In this document: positions 1-43,305 of the stretch, piece after piece
Layout of the letters: each line of letters starts with the position of its first letter
Position numbering within the stretch: the first letter of the stretch is position 1
DNA from: Clostridiales bacterium
GTDB taxonomy: Bacteria; Bacillota; Clostridia; Saccharofermentanales; Saccharofermentanaceae
Reading direction: 5' to 3'
NCBI GenBank assembly: GCA_017519205.1
Contig: JAFWSW010000130.1
Span: 1-50,091, forward strand
DNA length: 50,091 nucleotides
Translations under genes and position numbers: made by a program
Notes under the pieces: generated by a model
Database searches by the model: none
Seen by the model: the letters and a program-made list of their open reading frames with translations, nothing else
Told to the model about the DNA's origin: nothing

Positions 1-649
1 ACGAGAATACGCCGACCATGTATGCCATGTAGTATCCGGAGACAAAGAGCACCAGAAGCACGATCGTCAGCACCGGCCACGTCCTCTTGTTATCGATAAA
101 TTTCTCAGTAAGAAGGATCAGAAGCGGAAGGATCGCAAATCCATCCAGCCACATGATATTGAACATGTAGATGATCGCAAAGGAACAAAGCGGATACATC
201 ATGCCGAAAAGGATCGACATCTTATCATCGGATTTGAATTTGCGGTCTAAAAGCCAGGTCATAAAAGCACCGGCAAAGGAAAGCTTCACGATGATGATGA
301 GTGCGACCATCTCCTGGATCATCGATGTCGGGAATATAAGCACTATCAGATTCAACGGGCTGGAAAGATAGTATCCGAAAACGCCCATCGTATTCGCGCC
401 GAGACCGAGACTTCTATTGTAGAAAAGGGACTGTCCGGATAACAGCTGCTTCTTCAATCCGATGAGATACGGACCGTACTGCGCCGCAAGATCAGATGTA
501 AGGACACTTCTGCCGCCGAACGGGATGATCATGTTGATGGAAAACACCGTCACCATCGCAAGCATGGTCAGGAAAAACGCCAGCAGCGGACGACAGTCGA
601 TCTGCTTATGATTGCCCGCTTTCTTTTCAAGAGTCTTCTTCTCGATCAA
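1..649 (-). CDS. YfhO-family membrane protein (partial, N-terminal part)
   Basis: Read on the minus strand this is the first ~216 codons of a polytopic membrane protein whose C-terminus lies outside the window. It begins MIEKKTLEKK and closely parallels the upstream paralogue (MIEKNTLESAK), sharing motifs such as PFGGRSVLTSDLAAQYGPYL, SSPLNLI, VKLSFAGAFMT and ILFGMMY. YfhO proteins are GT-C-like enzymes that transfer sugars from undecaprenyl phosphate to cell-surface polymers outside the membrane; that role is known for the family and only inferred here. The start is a TTG at 647-649, chosen because a GGAGG lies 9-10 nt upstream and because it aligns with the paralogue's start. It overlaps the 3' end of the preceding gene by 23 nt, so translation is probably coupled. 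Confidence 0.85.
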   Translation of the reverse strand, partial: MIEKKTLEKKAGNHKQIDCRPLLAFFLTMLAMVTVFSINMIIPFGGRSVLTSDLAAQYGPYLIGLKKQLLSGQSLFYNRSLGLGANTMGVFGYYLSSPLNLIVLIFPTSMIQEMVALIIIVKLSFAGAFMTWLLDRKFKSDDKMSILFGMMYPLCSFAIIYMFNIMWLDGFAILPLLILLTEKFIDNKRTWPVLTIVLLVLFVSGYYMAYMVGVFS

Positions 650-977
650 GCTTGATTTCCTCCTCCGCCTTGCGCTCCTGATGTTTTTTTCTTGTGACCA
701 CGATAAGTGCCACGCTGAAGAAAACACCCAGTGCACTGATTATAACACCAATTCCCATTCCGTTGGGAACGAATGTCAGTTCTACCGTGTGGGTCCCGGG
801 GGCCATCGGCAGGAGGATAAAAGCGTCCTGGTAAGACGATATCTCCACCTTCTCTCCATCCACCGTTGCGGTCCATCCGTTTTCGTACGGGATCGTGGCG
901 ATCAGCGTCTTCTGTTCATCCGCCGTTGCTGTAAATGTAACCTTTCCATCGCTTACCGAAAGATCCGAGATCCCCGT
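627..977 (-). pseudogene. In-frame C-terminal remainder of the interrupted yfhO gene
   Basis: After the TAG at 978-980 the frame continues TGISDLSVSDGKVTF and then IPYENGWTATVDGEKVEI, the typical YfhO end domain, followed by a final membrane segment (GVIISALGVFFSVALIVV) and a basic, charged tail ending at TGA 627-629. With this part the protein would be 926 codons long including the stop position, a normal length for the family. There is no ribosome binding site of its own near the break, so this piece is probably not made as a separate protein unless the stop is read through. Confidence 0.8.
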
Positions 978-3407
978 CTACACGGCTTCCGTCTGTTTTC
1001 CGAGTTCTTCCGTGTCGCATACGGCGATCGAGGGAGTAAAGGAAGCAAAGATATCATCGTCACAGCGCACCTCGATCGTGATCTCCTCTCCGGCACTGTG
1101 TACACCGGTATCGACGATCACGGAGAAGTACGAAGAAGACTCTTCCACATACACCGGGATATCATTGCAGTAGATCGAGACCGGAGCACTGTGCATCAGG
1201 AACGGGATCGAAAGATATACCGGACCGTCCTTTTCGACCTTCGTCTTCGCACGAAGGAGGATCGGCGACTTGCTGTTATTTCTCAGATAGAACGTCAATT
1301 CGGAAGAATACTTCTCCACATCCTCGAGGTCGAGCGCATTCTTTTCTTTATCATATTCCAGAGTAATGTCGGCCATGTCACCGGACACTTCCTGCGCATT
1401 CATTACCTCCCAGGAGAGTGCTTTTGTATCATAGACCTTATCTGCAGGGATGCCGGAGAGCGAGCTCATCCAGTCTTCCTGGAATTTGAAATAGTCCTTG
1501 CCCTCGCCCATGGTCTCGAGGCTGTATCCGTCAAAGCCGGAAGCTCCAGCATCCGCAAGGAAAACGATATCTGTCGCATACGGGTTTTCAAAGAGTGTAT
1601 ATCTACCGTATGTGCCGACCGGATCGATCCCGCTGATCTCCTTGACCGAGGAGACGATGTATTTCACACCGAGGAAAGAGTCCGCCGGAAGATTCATCGC
1701 TCTGTGCTCGGAAGAGAAGTAATTGAAGTTCGTGCAATAACCGAGCTGCTTGAGGAAACGGTGCTGCTTCTTATTCGACATGGAGCAGAAAGCACCGATG
1801 CCGTTTGTCTCTGTATACGAGGAAAGATTCAGGGAATCGATATTATCGGAAAGGAACCAGGCACGCTCCACACGATATCCTTCCGAGCTGTCCAGCGACG
1901 ATGTCAGTTCCTGAAGTTCTTCGACTTCCGCCTGAAAATCAGAGGCTTCCTCGGTATCGTTCCAGATGGCACCGACTGTAACTCTGGGTGCGAGGAATAC
2001 GATCTCTACAAGCACGATCGGAACCAGGATACCGGATCCGAGTTTCTTCAGGTTCGCCAGCTGATCGCTCCATTTTTCTTTCGACAGACCGAAAAGACAG
2101 AGCGCGATCAGAAGGAGAAGGATGAGATTCTGGAAATACATGGACTCTCCCTCTTTGAGTCCGCTGAAGCGCTCCGCGATCAGAAGGAGAGCGAACAGCA
2201 GTCCGAACATCGCGATAAAATGCTTGTTCTGAAGGAAGCGGATATGAAGGAAAGAGTAAATAGCCACAAGGATCATTCCGAAGATGAACAGGAACGAATA
2301 TCTGTAAAGGAACCAGTTCGGATTATCGAAAAGATGCCATGCCATGTTCAGGACCGGCATGAGGAAAGAAATGATCCCCAGCGTAAATGCTATTCCCACA
2401 CGAATGCGGAGACGCTTGGGGATGTCGGGATTCATGAAGAATAGAACAACGAGTTCCAGTACCGCCAGACTTGAGAATACAAACGGCATATTCGTGGAAA
2501 TATCCGACAGCTTCGCAAGGAATACATACGGGAGGAACTGGATCAGGCTGAACGGCGGGTCCATCGATATCGAAGCCGACGCGGAACGGTCCCCGTTTAC
2601 GATCGTATCGATACCGGCCGGAAGCAGGAGCGCCGCACATACCATCGCAGCGAAAACGGCAGTCAAAATGAAGACGCCGAGTGCTTTTGCAGAAGAAGGA
2701 GAGCCGGCGGTGCGGTCATTCTTTCTGTCATATTCCAGAACCCCGATCAGGTAGAAGAACGAGAAAATACCTACCATGTAAGCGATGTAGTAATTCGACG
2801 CGAAAAGCACTATCAGCACAAGAAGGACTTTATATGCCTGACGGATGTCCTTACGGAACTTCTCGATCACGAGGATCAGGAGCGGCAGAAGTGCAAATCC
2901 GTCGAGCCAGATGAAGTTAAAGATGAACGACATCGAGTAGGAAGAAAGTGCGTAGATCATGCCGAAAAGGATGCTCATCTTCGTCTTTGAACTGAATTTA
3001 TAATCGATCAGCGCAGTCATAAATGCACCGGCGAAAGAGAGCTTGAGCATGATGATCAGCACGATCGCATCGGAGATGTGTGAGACCGGGAACAGAAGCG
3101 AGATCAGGTTCAGAGGGCTCGAACAGTAGTAGGCAATGATTCCCGGCAGGCTCTTTCCCATACCGATCTCAAAGGAATAGTAAGGTGATCCGCCGTGGAG
3201 GATCTTATTTCGCATCGTGATCAGATACGGTGCGTACTGGGCCGAAAGATCCGATACCATGACCGATCTTGGTCCGAACGGAGCCACGCCTGTCAGAAGG
3301 AGGATCGCTGCCAGTGCTGCGAACACGGAAAAGAACGCCATGAGCGGACGGAAATTCCGTTCTTTCTTCAGGCGCTTTGCACTTTCAAGCGTGTTCTTCT
3401 CGATCAT
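978..3407 (-). CDS. YfhO-family membrane glycosyltransferase, C-terminally truncated by in-frame TAG
   Basis: Encodes 809 residues: a short basic N-terminus, about a dozen hydrophobic segments (residues ~20-480), then a large extracytoplasmic domain. Family features include SDLSAQYAPYL and SSPLNLISLLFPVSHI near the N-terminus. YfhO-type proteins are placed at the last step of lipoteichoic-acid or related polymer glycosylation, taking sugar from a polyprenyl carrier. The start ATG follows AAGGAG with 8 nt spacing. Translation stops at TAG (978-980), but the same frame stays open for 116 more codons carrying the conserved C-terminal module, so the reading frame is broken by one nonsense codon. 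Other genes here (dnaX, truA) end in TAG, so the codon is an ordinary stop. The product may be inactive, or the stop may be an assembly or sequencing error. Confidence 0.8.
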   Translation of the reverse strand: MIEKNTLESAKRLKKERNFRPLMAFFSVFAALAAILLLTGVAPFGPRSVMVSDLSAQYAPYLITMRNKILHGGSPYYSFEIGMGKSLPGIIAYYCSSPLNLISLLFPVSHISDAIVLIIMLKLSFAGAFMTALIDYKFSSKTKMSILFGMIYALSSYSMSFIFNFIWLDGFALLPLLILVIEKFRKDIRQAYKVLLVLIVLFASNYYIAYMVGIFSFFYLIGVLEYDRKNDRTAGSPSSAKALGVFILTAVFAAMVCAALLLPAGIDTIVNGDRSASASISMDPPFSLIQFLPYVFLAKLSDISTNMPFVFSSLAVLELVVLFFMNPDIPKRLRIRVGIAFTLGIISFLMPVLNMAWHLFDNPNWFLYRYSFLFIFGMILVAIYSFLHIRFLQNKHFIAMFGLLFALLLIAERFSGLKEGESMYFQNLILLLLIALCLFGLSKEKWSDQLANLKKLGSGILVPIVLVEIVFLAPRVTVGAIWNDTEEASDFQAEVEELQELTSSLDSSEGYRVERAWFLSDNIDSLNLSSYTETNGIGAFCSMSNKKQHRFLKQLGYCTNFNYFSSEHRAMNLPADSFLGVKYIVSSVKEISGIDPVGTYGRYTLFENPYATDIVFLADAGASGFDGYSLETMGEGKDYFKFQEDWMSSLSGIPADKVYDTKALSWEVMNAQEVSGDMADITLEYDKEKNALDLEDVEKYSSELTFYLRNNSKSPILLRAKTKVEKDGPVYLSIPFLMHSAPVSIYCNDIPVYVEESSSYFSVIVDTGVHSAGEEITIEVRCDDDIFASFTPSIAVCDTEELGKQTEAV

Positions 3408-3436
3408 GATCTGTTCTCCTTAATTCTTACATTGGT

Positions 3437-3463
3437 ATCGTATCACAAACGCCCTGTTTCCAA
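3437..3463 (-). promoter_or_regulatory. Candidate promoter of the yfhO pair
   Basis: On the minus strand TTGGAA (3458-3463) is followed after 15 nt by TACGAT (3437-3442), preceded by TGA so that it reads as an extended -10. The spacer is short. The 140-nt gap it lies in (3408-3547) is shared with the divergent glycosyltransferase gene, for which TATACT at 3507-3512 is a possible -10 without a clear -35. Confidence 0.35.
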
Positions 3464-3547
3464 AAGGTTTACGATTGAAACTGTCCTTTTTACCGCATGA
3501 ATGTAGTATACTGATTACATAGTTCGGAATAGTTTATGAGGTGGATT

Positions 3548-4498
3548 ATGCTAGTTAGTCTGATGGTTCCCTGTTATAACGAACAGGAAGCTCTTCCCTA
3601 TCTTTATGAGGCACTGTGCAAGGTCACGTCCGAGTGCAGCCAGTATGAGTATGAACTGATCTTCGTCAACGACGGCAGTAAAGACAATACTCTGGGCGTT
3701 CTTAAAGAAATGGCCGCGAAAGACTCGCGTATCCGCTATATCTCTTTTTCAAGAAACTTCGGAAAAGAAGCCGCCATGTATGCCGGTCTTGCCGCCGCCA
3801 GGGGCGAGTGGATCGGACTTCTCGATGCGGACATGCAGGACCCGCCGTCTCTTCTTCCGGAGATGTTTGAAGCACTGGAAAAAGATGAGTGTGATATCGT
3901 TGCCACACGACGTGTATCCAGAAAGGGCGAGCCGCCGATCCGAAGCTGGTTTGCCCGCCGTTTCTATCACCTGATCAATAAATTCACCGATGTCGAGATC
4001 GTCGATGGCGCAAGAGATTTCCGTGTCATGAAGCGTCCGGTCGTTGATGCGATCCTTTCTCTCAAAGAGAGACAGCGCTTCAGTAAAGGTATCTTCGCCT
4101 GGGTCGGTTTCCGCACCAAGTGGCTGGAATATGAAAACGTCGAGCGTGTCGCCGGCGAGACGAAGTGGTCATTCTGGAAGCTTTTCCGTTACGCCATCGA
4201 AGGTATCGTCTCCTTTACCACTGCGCCGCTCCGTATTGCCATGATCGTCGGATTCCTTACTTCACTCGGCGCCTTCCTTTACTTGCTTTACTACTTCATC
4301 CACGCCCTCGTCTACCAGACATGGGAAAAGGTTGCCGGTTATCCGTCACTCCTGTCCTTCATGCTCTTCCTCGGCGGCATGGTCCTGATGGCACTGGGAA
4401 TCATCGGCGAGTATCTTGCGAAGACCTATATCGAGATCAAGAACCGTCCGCTCTATGTTATCGCAGAGGACAATAAGAGAGACGAAGACGCGAAGTAA
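3548..4498 (+). CDS. Polyprenyl-phosphate glycosyltransferase, family 2 (CsbB/GtrB-like)
   Basis: A 316-residue protein with an N-terminal GT-A fold: MVPCYNEQE at the start, VNDGS (~40-44), the nucleotide-sugar/metal motif DADMQD (~93-98), and C-terminal membrane helices at ~229-254 and ~268-289. This layout is that of CsbB, GtrB and YfdH, which load a sugar from a nucleotide donor onto undecaprenyl phosphate at the inner face of the membrane. In Bacillus subtilis csbB lies next to yfhO and the two work with the flippase GtcA to decorate lipoteichoic acid; the divergent yfhO genes here fit that scheme. The start at 3548 is preferred over 3536 because GAGGTGG sits just upstream of it. Confidence 0.9.
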   Translation: MLVSLMVPCYNEQEALPYLYEALCKVTSECSQYEYELIFVNDGSKDNTLGVLKEMAAKDSRIRYISFSRNFGKEAAMYAGLAAARGEWIGLLDADMQDPPSLLPEMFEALEKDECDIVATRRVSRKGEPPIRSWFARRFYHLINKFTDVEIVDGARDFRVMKRPVVDAILSLKERQRFSKGIFAWVGFRTKWLEYENVERVAGETKWSFWKLFRYAIEGIVSFTTAPLRIAMIVGFLTSLGAFLYLLYYFIHALVYQTWEKVAGYPSLLSFMLFLGGMVLMALGIIGEYLAKTYIEIKNRPLYVIAEDNKRDEDAK

Positions 4499-6985: not shown

Positions 6986-7801
6986 TTACTTCATATTCAC
7001 CAAGAAATCTACTGCCAAGGGGATAAAAGCCACCGCGGCGAGTATGATCAGCCAGACAAAATCCGATGCCTTCAGTCGCAGCGGATGGAGCTTCGTCTTT
7101 CCGACGCCTCCCTGATAGCATCTGGCGTCCATGGCTACGGCCAGTTCGTCCGCTCTTTTAAATGCACTGACGAACAGCGGGACCAGCACCGCCACATATC
7201 CTTTGGCACGCTTAAACACATTTCCCGTATCGTATTCCGCACCTCGGGAAGACTGTGCCTTCATGATCTTATCCGTTTCCTCGACAAGAGTCGGGATAAA
7301 ACGGAGTGCGATGGAGATGGTCATCGCCATCTCATTTACCGGGACCTTGATTACCTTGAGCGGCGATCCGAGTGCTTCCAGCGCATCTGCCAGTTTCAGC
7401 GGTGTCGTGGTCAGAGAAAGAAGAATACTCGTCGCCAGGATCAGGAACATCAGTCGGAAGGCCATAAAGGTCGCTTTTTCCAGACCGACGGTCGTAATCT
7501 TGAAGATCCACCAGCTCCAGATCTCATCCCCGGACCGTATCGTCAGGAGATTGATCAGGAAGATAAAGACCATGATAAACACGACCGGTTTCAGTGAGCG
7601 GAGTATCTCGAGCGGATTGACTCTCGACAGGAACGTCAGAAAGAGGATCACACCCAGAGTCGCGATCATCGCCGTCGTGGTATTCGCCAGGAAGATCGTC
7701 ACCATATAAAGGATAAACAGGATGATCTTAAATCTCGGGTCGAGGCGGTGTATCACGGAGTTCCCCTCGACATAACGGCCGATAGAAACATCTTTCATCA
7801 T
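6986..7801 (-). CDS. ecfT: ECF transporter transmembrane component EcfT
   Basis: A 271-residue membrane protein with about six hydrophobic segments and a cytoplasmic region carrying the two coupling helices, seen as QSSRGAEYDT and AMDARCYQGG (variants of the Ala-Arg-Gly motifs that contact the ATPases). EcfT links the ATPases to exchangeable substrate-binding S components for vitamins and metals; no S component is present here, as is usual for the shared group II module beside the ribosomal cluster. The ATG overlaps the ecfA stop by 4 nt (ATGA). A nearby second ATG (7798) is possible. Confidence 0.94.
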   Translation of the reverse strand: MMKDVSIGRYVEGNSVIHRLDPRFKIILFILYMVTIFLANTTTAMIATLGVILFLTFLSRVNPLEILRSLKPVVFIMVFIFLINLLTIRSGDEIWSWWIFKITTVGLEKATFMAFRLMFLILATSILLSLTTTPLKLADALEALGSPLKVIKVPVNEMAMTISIALRFIPTLVEETDKIMKAQSSRGAEYDTGNVFKRAKGYVAVLVPLFVSAFKRADELAVAMDARCYQGGVGKTKLHPLRLKASDFVWLIILAAVAFIPLAVDFLVNMK

Positions 7802-9600
7802 GCCTCGTCCACCTCCCCTCTATCTCCGAACAGAAGGGATCCTGCCGCTTCATTCACATCGAAAAGCACTTCGTCGATATACGGAAGTTCTTTTTTCAGG
7901 GCATGCAGTGTCTGCATCAGGCACGGACGGTCAAGTCTCATGCTGATATAATCGCTGCCCTCGGAGAAAAGCTCCTTCGGCTTTCCGAAGAATACCTGTT
8001 CTCCCTTTTTCAGTACCAGGACACGGTCAGCGATTCGTGCCGCCTCATCCATATCGTGAGAAACCAGCACGATCGATTTGCCTTTCTCGCGCAGTGTCTC
8101 AATATATCCGAAGATCTCCTTCTGTCCGGCAGGATCGAGTCCTGCTGCAGGCTCATCGAGGATCAGGACATCCGGATCCATCGCGAGGATACCGGCAAAT
8201 GCCACTCTTCTCTTCTGTCCGCCCGACAGTTCAAACGGGGATCTTTTCAGAATGTCTTCAGTAAGTCCGACGAGCGGCAGCGATTCCTTCGTCAGGCGCT
8301 CGCACGTCGCTTCGTCATAACCCATTTTCTTGGGTCCGAACTGGATATCCTTCTCTACCGTCTCTTCAAAGAGCTGGTACTCCGGGTACTGGAACAGCAG
8401 TCCCACATGACGGCGGATCAGCTTTATCTCGGAATTCTTATCAGTGGAGATATATTTCTTCTCTTCTTCATTCCAGACTTCCACCTTACCTTCGAGCGGG
8501 CGGAGGATACCGTTCAGATGCGAGATCAGGGTCGTTTTGCCGGAACCGCTGTGTCCGATAACAGTAACGATCTCGCCTTTTCTTATATCAAAGGATACAT
8601 TTGTCAGCGCATTCTTCTCTTTCTTTCCGTACCGGTGGGAAAGACCGCTCACGCGGAGCACGACCTGATCAGAAACCTCTCTGTCAGGCTTCACGAACCG
8701 CTTCGCTGTATCCGGTTTTTTCGTTTTAACAAGCTCTACGATCTTCTTGACCGCATTTTCTTCGGATGTAAAATCACCCGCCTCGGGTGTTACACCGCAG
8801 ATCCTTGCGACTTCGCAAAGAAGCTCCGCCCACTTCGGGAGTTCCAGTCCCAGAGATCGGATCGTTTCCACCTGTGAGAACACTTCCGACGGTGTTCCGT
8901 TTAAGCGGATCTTTCCTTTTTCCAGAACGATAACGCGGTCAGCCAGATATGCCTCATGCATATCATGCGTGATATGGATAACGGTAATACCCTTATCCTC
9001 ACGCATTCTTCGAACCAGATGCAGGAACTCGTCTCTGGCCTTCGGGTCGAGCATGGATGTACTTTCATCAAGGATCATAAGCTGAGGCTCCATAGCCAGC
9101 ACGCCGGCAATCGCCAGTTTCTGTTTCTGTCCGCCTGACAGGGAAGAAGGCTGCTTATTGGCCTTTTCCAGAAGACCCACATAGCCCAGTGCTTTTTCCA
9201 CACGCTGGGCAAGCTCAGGGAGTGGAACGGAAAGATTCTCCGGTCCGAATGCCACGTCCTCTTCGACTGTCGTTCCGACGATCTGATTGTCCGGATTCTG
9301 GAATACCATGCCGCAGTGAGTACGGATCTTCCAGAAGTTCTCTTCGTTATCGGCAGAGAGCTCAAATACGGTGAGTTTTCCCTTATCCGGCGCTTCCAGC
9401 AGGTTGATCATCTTCGCCAGCGTCGACTTTCCGGAACCGTTTCTGCCCAGGATAGCAACATACTCACCCTTATCAACAGACAAAGAAGCATGGTCCACCG
9501 CTACGACATTCTTTCCGGAATTCGTCGCATACGAGAACAGAATATCTTCTGCCTTCACCGCCTGCTTATATTCCGCAATGTCTCTGTTTGAGGGAACCAT
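7798..9600 (-). CDS. Fused ECF transporter ATPase (EcfA1-EcfA2 in one chain)
   Basis: One 600-residue protein holding two complete ABC ATPase domains. Domain 1: Walker A GRNGSGKST (52-60), Q-loop QNPDNQ, signature LSGGQ (154-158), Walker B LMILDE (174-179). Domain 2: GHSGSGKTT (349-357), Q-loop QYPEYQ, LSGGQ (459-463), LILDEP (~479-484). Residues ~265-312 form a linker. Domain 1 resembles EcfA1 and domain 2 EcfA2, which are usually separate adjacent genes after rplQ. The pair hydrolyses ATP to drive vitamin or metal uptake with EcfT. In domain 1 the usual Pro after DE is Ser (LDEST). GGAG lies 11 nt before the ATG. Confidence 0.93.
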   Translation of the reverse strand: MVPSNRDIAEYKQAVKAEDILFSYATNSGKNVVAVDHASLSVDKGEYVAILGRNGSGKSTLAKMINLLEAPDKGKLTVFELSADNEENFWKIRTHCGMVFQNPDNQIVGTTVEEDVAFGPENLSVPLPELAQRVEKALGYVGLLEKANKQPSSLSGGQKQKLAIAGVLAMEPQLMILDESTSMLDPKARDEFLHLVRRMREDKGITVIHITHDMHEAYLADRVIVLEKGKIRLNGTPSEVFSQVETIRSLGLELPKWAELLCEVARICGVTPEAGDFTSEENAVKKIVELVKTKKPDTAKRFVKPDREVSDQVVLRVSGLSHRYGKKEKNALTNVSFDIRKGEIVTVIGHSGSGKTTLISHLNGILRPLEGKVEVWNEEEKKYISTDKNSEIKLIRRHVGLLFQYPEYQLFEETVEKDIQFGPKKMGYDEATCERLTKESLPLVGLTEDILKRSPFELSGGQKRRVAFAGILAMDPDVLILDEPAAGLDPAGQKEIFGYIETLREKGKSIVLVSHDMDEAARIADRVLVLKKGEQVFFGKPKELFSEGSDYISMRLDRPCLMQTLHALKKELPYIDEVLFDVNEAAGSLLFGDRGEVDEA

Positions 9601-9697: not shown

Positions 9698-10264
9698 TTA
9701 CTCAGCGAATGTGAGCAGAGCCATCTCAGAAGCGTCACCGCGACGAGCGCCGAGCTTGACGATCTTTGTGTAACCACCCTTGTGGTTGATGAGAGCCGGT
9801 GCGATCTCATCATAGAGGATGTTTACCGGATCAACTACGTGACCCTCAGCATCGTGACTCTTTCTGAGCCAGTATGCAGCATTCTTTCTAGCTGCGAGAC
9901 GAGAAGGAGCATCAACCTGTACAGTCTTCTTAGAGACTTCACGGTCAACGACCTCATACTTCTTGCCGTTCTTGGAAGTCTTGGAAACCAGGACCTTCAT
10001 GCCCTTGCTATCAAGTTTAGCTGTGGAAACGGTAACTTCCTTTGTTGTGAAGTTATCTTTTTCACGAATGGCATCTGCGATCAGCTTATCCATGATCTTA
10101 GAAACTTCCTTGGCACGCGCCAGTGTTGTTACCACGTGCTTTCTGTTTTCGGAAAGTGCCTTTCCGTCTTCTTTAACCGGGCAAACAACAAGGGATGTTG
10201 CCAGATTTCTTAAAATTGCAATACGCTGATTGCTAACTCTTCCTAATTTTCTGTAACCTGCCAT
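9698..10264 (-). CDS. rplQ: 50S ribosomal protein bL17 with internal insertions
   Basis: 188 residues against about 115-130 in most bacteria. The core is clear: YRKLGRVSNQRIAILRNLATSL at the N-terminus and IAPALINHKGGYTKIVKLG-RRGDASEMALL at the C-terminus. Extra sequence lies at ~30-42 (PVKEDGKALSENR) and especially ~68-125, a lysine-rich stretch between the two core halves. bL17 binds 23S rRNA near the tunnel exit. It is the last gene of the alpha operon, with a terminator behind it. Confidence 0.95.
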   Translation of the reverse strand: MAGYRKLGRVSNQRIAILRNLATSLVVCPVKEDGKALSENRKHVVTTLARAKEVSKIMDKLIADAIREKDNFTTKEVTVSTAKLDSKGMKVLVSKTSKNGKKYEVVDREVSKKTVQVDAPSRLAARKNAAYWLRKSHDAEGHVVDPVNILYDEIAPALINHKGGYTKIVKLGARRGDASEMALLTFAE

Positions 10265-25371: not shown

Positions 25372-25683
25372 TTAGGCCTTGAGCTCAATGCTCACACCTG
25401 CTGGCATGTCAAGCTTTGTCAGTGCGTCGATCGTCTTCTGGTTCGGTGCGAAGATGTCGATAAGACGCTTATGTGTACGGAGCTCAAACTGCTCACGGGA
25501 ATCCTTATACTTATGAGGAGAACGCAGGATCGTTGTGATCTCTTTCTCTGTCGGGAGCGGGATCGGGCCGGAGAAGCTTGCGCCTGTTCTGGTGACCGTC
25601 TCGACGATACGTGCTGCGCTCTGGTCAAGGAGCTCGTGATCGTAAGCTTTGAGCTTGATTCTGATCTTCTGGTTTGCTGCCAT
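25372..25683 (-). CDS. rpsJ: 30S ribosomal protein uS10
   Basis: 103 residues from [20 protein letters not shown], the normal start; an open frame continues upstream to 25824 but has no homology to uS10 and lacks a ribosome site, while GGAGG precedes 25683. The C-terminal [20 protein letters not shown] is conserved. First gene of the S10 operon. Confidence 0.97.
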
Positions 25684-25957
25684 TTTGTGTTCCTCCAAAT
25701 TCTTTGCTGTTGTTTTTTTCTTCACCCTATCCAGCGTTTCTTCTGATCCCATCATAAAACCCAGGAGACCAGTTACCGCCTCATGCGGCACTTTGGGCCT
25801 GGGCATGTGTTCTTCAAAACACACGCTGTACGTCCGGGTTCCTCGCCGAAGATCTATGCCTTCGACTGCTCCGCCTAAGTTACCCGCTCTCTAAAGCACA
25901 GCCCGCTTTATCCTGCGGCAATCTCAAGCATCAACGCTACGCGCATAAAGTCGCGCA
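25684..25957 (-). promoter_or_regulatory. Long structured leader of the S10 operon
   Basis: About 275 nt lie between the predicted transcription start and the rpsJ ATG. On the minus strand CCCAGG (25798-25803) pairs with CCTGGG (25760-25765), enclosing CCGC-ATGAG-GCGG, and is followed by TTTTAT: an attenuator-like terminator. Just upstream CGTGTGTT and AACACATG form another hairpin around TTGAAG. The layout suggests regulated read-through, for example by an r-protein. Confidence 0.5.
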
Positions 25958-43156: not shown

Positions 43157-43305
43157 GTCCCGGGTGGTCTACAGTTGGCGGTGGGTCTTGTGCGATGCGA
43201 GCCTGTGAACCCTGTCAGGTCCGGAAGGAAGCAGCAGTAAGCGGTCACTTGCATGTGCCGCAAGGGTGCTTGCCCCGACTGTAGTCCAGCCGGGACGATT
43301 TTTAT
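43157..43305 (+). ncRNA. ffs: Signal recognition particle RNA, small bacterial type
   Basis: The universally conserved tip CAGGTCCGGAAGGAAGCAGC lies at ~43218-43238. The ends pair as GTCCCGG (43157-43163) and CCGGGAC (43290-43296), with further matches CTACAGT/ACTGTAG, giving one long rod of ~140 nt; TTTTTATT follows as terminator. It binds Ffh and guides ribosomes making membrane proteins to the translocon. No Alu domain as in the ~270-nt Bacillus form was found. dnaX follows, as in many bacteria. Confidence 0.95.

Follow-up and report, generated by a model that had tools for sequence, protein, structure and literature searches.

A likely recent nonsense substitution in yfhO1, a GT-C glycosyltransferase paralogue of a rumen Saccharofermentanaceae bacterium

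A tandem yfhO pair with an interrupted first gene

The window, by which we mean the whole stretch of 50,091 nucleotides analysed here, is the entire contig C142 of a 2.5 Mb draft genome that comprises 240 contigs and is 89.9% complete. Near its left end lies yfhO1, a membrane glycosyltransferase gene of the GT-C type and of the CsbB/YfhO (PgfS/PgfM) kind, which is the first member of a tandem yfhO1-yfhO2 pair. The first 216 codons of yfhO2 (positions 1-649, minus strand), beginning with a TTG start at 647-649, run off the window onto contig C221. Bases 1-18 of the window are also the last 18 of that contig (L156:10352-10369), so yfhO2 is divided between two adjoining contigs; once joined across the break, this gene is intact and encodes 932 aa. 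The end of yfhO1 and the start of yfhO2 overlap by 23 bases (627-649, minus strand), and the three nearest species share both this overlap and the TTG start. On the other side of an intergenic region (3408-3535), a CsbB/PgfS-like GT2 glycosyltransferase gene (3536-4498, plus strand; PF00535) diverges from the pair, and its counterparts at this locus in the rest of the genus are 82-96% identical. A GtrA-type protein, scoring above its cut-off, is encoded elsewhere in the genome, on contig C59. By presence alone, the GT2, GtrA-type and GT-C partners (YfhO1/YfhO2) of a multi-component system of the CsbB-GtcA-YfhO type are all encoded in this genome.

The original prediction described a full-length yfhO gene split by a single in-frame TAG, and this description stands. 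Translation of positions 627-3407 on the minus strand gives 927 codons whose sole internal stop is the TAG at codon 810 (978-980), the terminal TGA occupying 627-629. As it stands, the frame (978-3407, minus strand) encodes 809 aa corresponding to the GT-C membrane part and most of a large extracytoplasmic loop. The 116 codons behind the TAG (627-977 with the original TGA, minus strand) hold the conserved YfhO end, with IPYENGW and VDG followed by a terminal hydrophobic helix (IGVIISALGVFFSVALIVV). At the local composition about 5 stops would be expected by chance in 116 codons, and the probability of finding none is about 0.005.

Profile searches matched PF09586 on both sides of the TAG. Residues 25-805 of the head align with profile positions 2-747 (346.7 bits, E 4e-103) and residues 6-81 of the tail with positions 759-835 (E 5e-20). 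Read through the TAG, the frame covers positions 2-835, thus reaching the end of the profile, with 437.3 bits against 346.7 without the tail. The curated cut-off of PF09586 being 28.5 bits, yfhO1 exceeds it even as it stands, and annotation of the draft genome would call an 809-residue protein at this locus, which calls for caution.

Modelled with AlphaFold2 (pLDDT 87.1), the read-through frame comprises a GT-C membrane part and a large outer part, followed by a beta domain at the end and a last helix. The strands of the beta domain occupy residues 813-879 (771-971, minus strand). The last membrane helix spans residues ~884-907 by hydropathy (687-758, minus strand), within a model helix of 884-925, and is followed by a basic tail. 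Helix 799-810 ends at the TAG, with the beta domain immediately behind. No meaningful match for YfhO1 was found by sequence search among solved structures. The best structural matches of the model are AftD (E 8.6e-8) and AftA (E 1e-3), with low TM-scores of 0.3-0.45; both are GT-C arabinosyltransferases, and the YfhO1 model has a GT-C-like fold. At the level of equivalogs, the scores against PgfM1 and PgfM2 (NF047589 and NF047590) remain below the curated cut-offs, at 176.2 bits where 1400 are required and 138.6 bits where 1500 are required.

The stop codon in the light of related genomes

The named relatives carry the labels Clostridiales, Saccharofermentans and Mageeibacillus and come mostly from rumen or other animal gut. 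Across the genus (22 further genomes), the yfhO1 orthologues nearest to the gene studied here are unbroken and 78, 77 and 76% identical to it. The original prediction had proposed comparing the same locus in relatives, and a codon alignment places a sense codon opposite the TAG in 11/11 nearest orthologues, lysine in 9 of them. It had also considered that relatives might naturally end at this point. None does so: each of the 45 homologues aligned with yfhO1 (46 sequences in total) reads a sense codon there and keeps 103 to 190 residues behind it together with a hydrophobic helix. Since the codon is sense in all relatives and the tail is present in every homologue, the natural YfhO1 protein continues past the TAG site. 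The sequence context of the stop is absent from all other genomes of the genus, even when three mismatches are allowed, and a second, intact yfhO1 allele was not found in the same assembly. Candidate parallel losses in three relatives (G008, G016 and G018) were rejected, as the flagged stops came from alignment overrun into neighbouring frames and the yfhO genes concerned are intact.

The lost region carries the marks of a conserved domain. The tail is as conserved as the rest. Its 116 residues include three of the family's 23 invariant columns, and the residues concerned, P840, W845 and G851, are located in the end beta domain. At sites where five relatives agree, the window differs at 25/448 positions before the TAG and at 1/43 behind it (Fisher P 0.72). 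The tail has a dN/dS of 0.14-0.27 in the computable comparisons, similar to values between intact relatives, and yfhO1 contains no further stop or frameshift. Ancient decay of the tail finds no support in this unraised rate of change at conserved sites. The lack of excess decay therefore points to a stop that is young relative to the divergence of the species, or to one that is not real but a base error. Intact orthologues, a single stop and a conserved continuation, the features of a pseudogene created by nonsense substitution, are all found here.

We consequently read the TAG as a nonsense substitution of recent date that probably inactivates yfhO1, a GT-C glycosyltransferase paralogue with which the bacterium can dispense, and give this reading a probability of about 0.7. 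Of the options left open by the original prediction (true nonsense, phase-variable or strain-specific loss, read-through, base error), a recent true nonsense mutation is the best supported, every relative having a sense codon there and the tail unbroken. The main rival, to which we grant a clearly smaller but real share of credence, is that assembly of the metagenome introduced the TAG as a base error, or that the consensus retained the allele of a single strain, the gene being intact in the population. The draft character of the genome speaks in its favour, as does the closeness of the site (about 1 kb) to the contig end that interrupts yfhO2, where only an 18-base overlap leads to the next contig; moreover, relaxed selection is not seen anywhere in yfhO1. 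However, one clean stop created by a lone substitution is equally what a real young pseudogene shows. Nor did a survey of ~310 kb of this genome recognise another conserved gene broken within one frame, although the survey was insensitive enough to have missed yfhO1 itself. Codon usage pointed to 11 splits in these ~310 kb, and in each of them a new start codon follows the stop within 26 codons.

Phase-variable loss, also raised by the original prediction, found no support. Surface glycosylation genes are often phase variable, which is the argument for YfhO1 being subject to such switching. Yet the change is the substitution of a single codon, and neither tandem nor inverted repeats occur at the site; only a direct pair of 11-nt near-copies, at chance level, lies in 1101-1160, at least 120 nt away. 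With no repeat at the TAG, we regard switching as the most improbable of the explanations considered.

TAG as a stop signal in this genome

In a sample of about 310 kb that includes the window, TAG closes only 4/152 coding-like frames and is a rare stop in this lineage. Because of this rarity, recoding was tested. Within the window, TAG terminates the genes of DnaX and TruA, both identified by Pfam, with no coding continuation behind; elsewhere it likewise ends genes which we named by eye as RmuC-like, MATE-like transporter and kinase-like, again without coding continuation. Release factor RF1 is encoded, with a score above its cut-off. In the ~90% complete draft, none of the 43 tRNA matches is a UAG-reading (CUA) tRNA, a partial match on contig C118 being by eye a tRNA-Trp with a CCA anticodon, and a profile search did not find PylS (TIGR02367). 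TAG clearly works as a stop in this genome, and UAG recoding or pyrrolysine insertion was rejected on these observations.

The suggestion that the stop might be read through fares no better. Suppression by a tRNA or by context would still yield some full-length YfhO1, and the scarcity of TAG, along with a tail that is still constrained or only recently freed, would agree with it. Against it stand the presence of RF1, the lack of a reader among the tRNA matches and of PylS, and the other genes closed by the same codon. Relatives, moreover, have a sense codon and not a stop at the site, so that read-through cannot be an ancestral mechanism. We hold this explanation to be very unlikely, and equally so its elaboration, in which low-level UAG read-through would provide a short YfhO1 and a rare full-length form, tuning surface glycosylation.

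Consequences for YfhO1 and its pathway

If the TAG base is real, as we infer, translation would halt at residue 809, within the large outer loop, and the product as translated would lack the end domain and last membrane helix of the YfhO family, both present in 45/45 relatives. Since the whole conserved beta domain is removed along with the helix, the 809-residue product is most likely inactive. In large GT-C enzymes, outer carbohydrate-binding domains are thought to bind the acceptor (PMC8035078); by analogy, loss of the end domain of YfhO1 plausibly removes acceptor binding. A precedent exists in Listeria, where a nonsense mutation at codon 756 of the YfhO protein Lmo1079 removed GlcNAc from wall teichoic acid (PMC9133914). 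The two cases share a late nonsense substitution in a yfhO gene, but the Listeria alleles were selected in the laboratory, whereas the TAG of the window is either natural or an assembly error, and here a paralogue is present.

The stop nevertheless sits neatly between domains, at the end of the modelled helix, and every membrane helix except the last is retained. The 809-residue product may therefore still fold and keep its membrane catalytic part, and one could imagine a functional shorter enzyme or one of changed specificity. Retention of the end domain and helix by every homologue, the loss of three invariant residues and the abolished glycosylation in the Listeria mutant all make such a functional short form improbable.

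That yfhO1 can be dispensed with is suggested by sister species. In three of them (G001, G020 and G021; loci L190, L188 and L189) yfhO2 comes immediately after the GT2 gene, yfhO1 is missing from the locus, and no other match above 200 bits was found in those genomes; the persistence of the GT2 gene and yfhO2 without it suggests that yfhO1 is dispensable. In the yfhO2 gene tree, G020 and G021 group with G010, and G001 groups with G016, G010 and G016 both having yfhO1. As each species lacking the gene thus stands beside a carrier, yfhO1 has likely been lost at least twice, provided that the yfhO2 tree follows that of the species. Returning to the recent nonsense substitution, its effect would be tolerated because the adjoining yfhO2 is intact, and sister species manage without yfhO1. 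The finding would then be an ordinary one, the natural loss of a GT-C surface glycosyltransferase paralogue in a rumen bacterium, where other species have lost the same gene outright. The 331 bases left untranslated between the new TAG and the yfhO2 start could lower translation of yfhO2.

Judging from homologues, the GT2 partner would load a sugar onto undecaprenyl phosphate, the GtrA-type flippase would turn the loaded carrier outward, and the YfhO proteins would transfer the sugar to a surface polymer or protein. The CsbB-GtcA-YfhO system of Bacillus subtilis, which acts in lipoteichoic acid glycosylation (PMC5836110, PMC8035078), shares the PF09586 domain, an adjoining CsbB-like GT2 gene and a GtrA-type protein, here encoded elsewhere in the genome. 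B. subtilis YfhO has 13 predicted helices with a loop of 389 residues ahead of the last one (PMC5836110); YfhO1 has the same layout of many membrane helices, an outer loop of ~400 residues and a last helix. Unlike in B. subtilis, the genes form a tandem yfhO pair divergent from the GT2 gene and not one operon, and yfhO1 is truncated. With the PgfS-PgfM1-PgfE-PgfM2 protein glycosylation system of Streptococcus mutans (PMC5856776) the locus has in common one GT2 and two related membrane transferases, but gene order differs. The best NCBIfam matches of the locus proteins are Pgf models, though far below their cut-offs (176 of 1400 bits on the membrane transferase side; 329 of 500 bits for the GT2 protein, with PgfS on top).

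When B. subtilis CsbB is overproduced without YfhO, the lipid carrier is trapped and SigM activated (PMC11081497). If the TAG is real, the GT2 partner would be supported by yfhO2 alone, in contrast to B. subtilis, in which the carrier is trapped when the matching YfhO is lacking; yfhO2 may here prevent such trapping.

Other features of the window

Several genes elsewhere in the window have unusual layouts. EcfA1- and EcfA2-type ATPases of an energy-coupling factor transporter lie in one frame of 600 residues (7798-9600, minus strand), apparently as a fusion, beside a CbiQ-like T component (6986-7801). The ribosomal protein L17 frame (9698-10264, minus strand) has 188 residues, over which the 97-position profile is spread from residue 42 to 186, suggesting an insertion and an extended start. 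In the S10 frame (25372-25824, minus strand; 144-150 residues) the domain begins at residue 55, so that the protein is extended at its N-terminus unless the true start lies further downstream. Directly upstream of dnaX, positions 43179-43278 (plus strand) encode a bacterial small SRP RNA.
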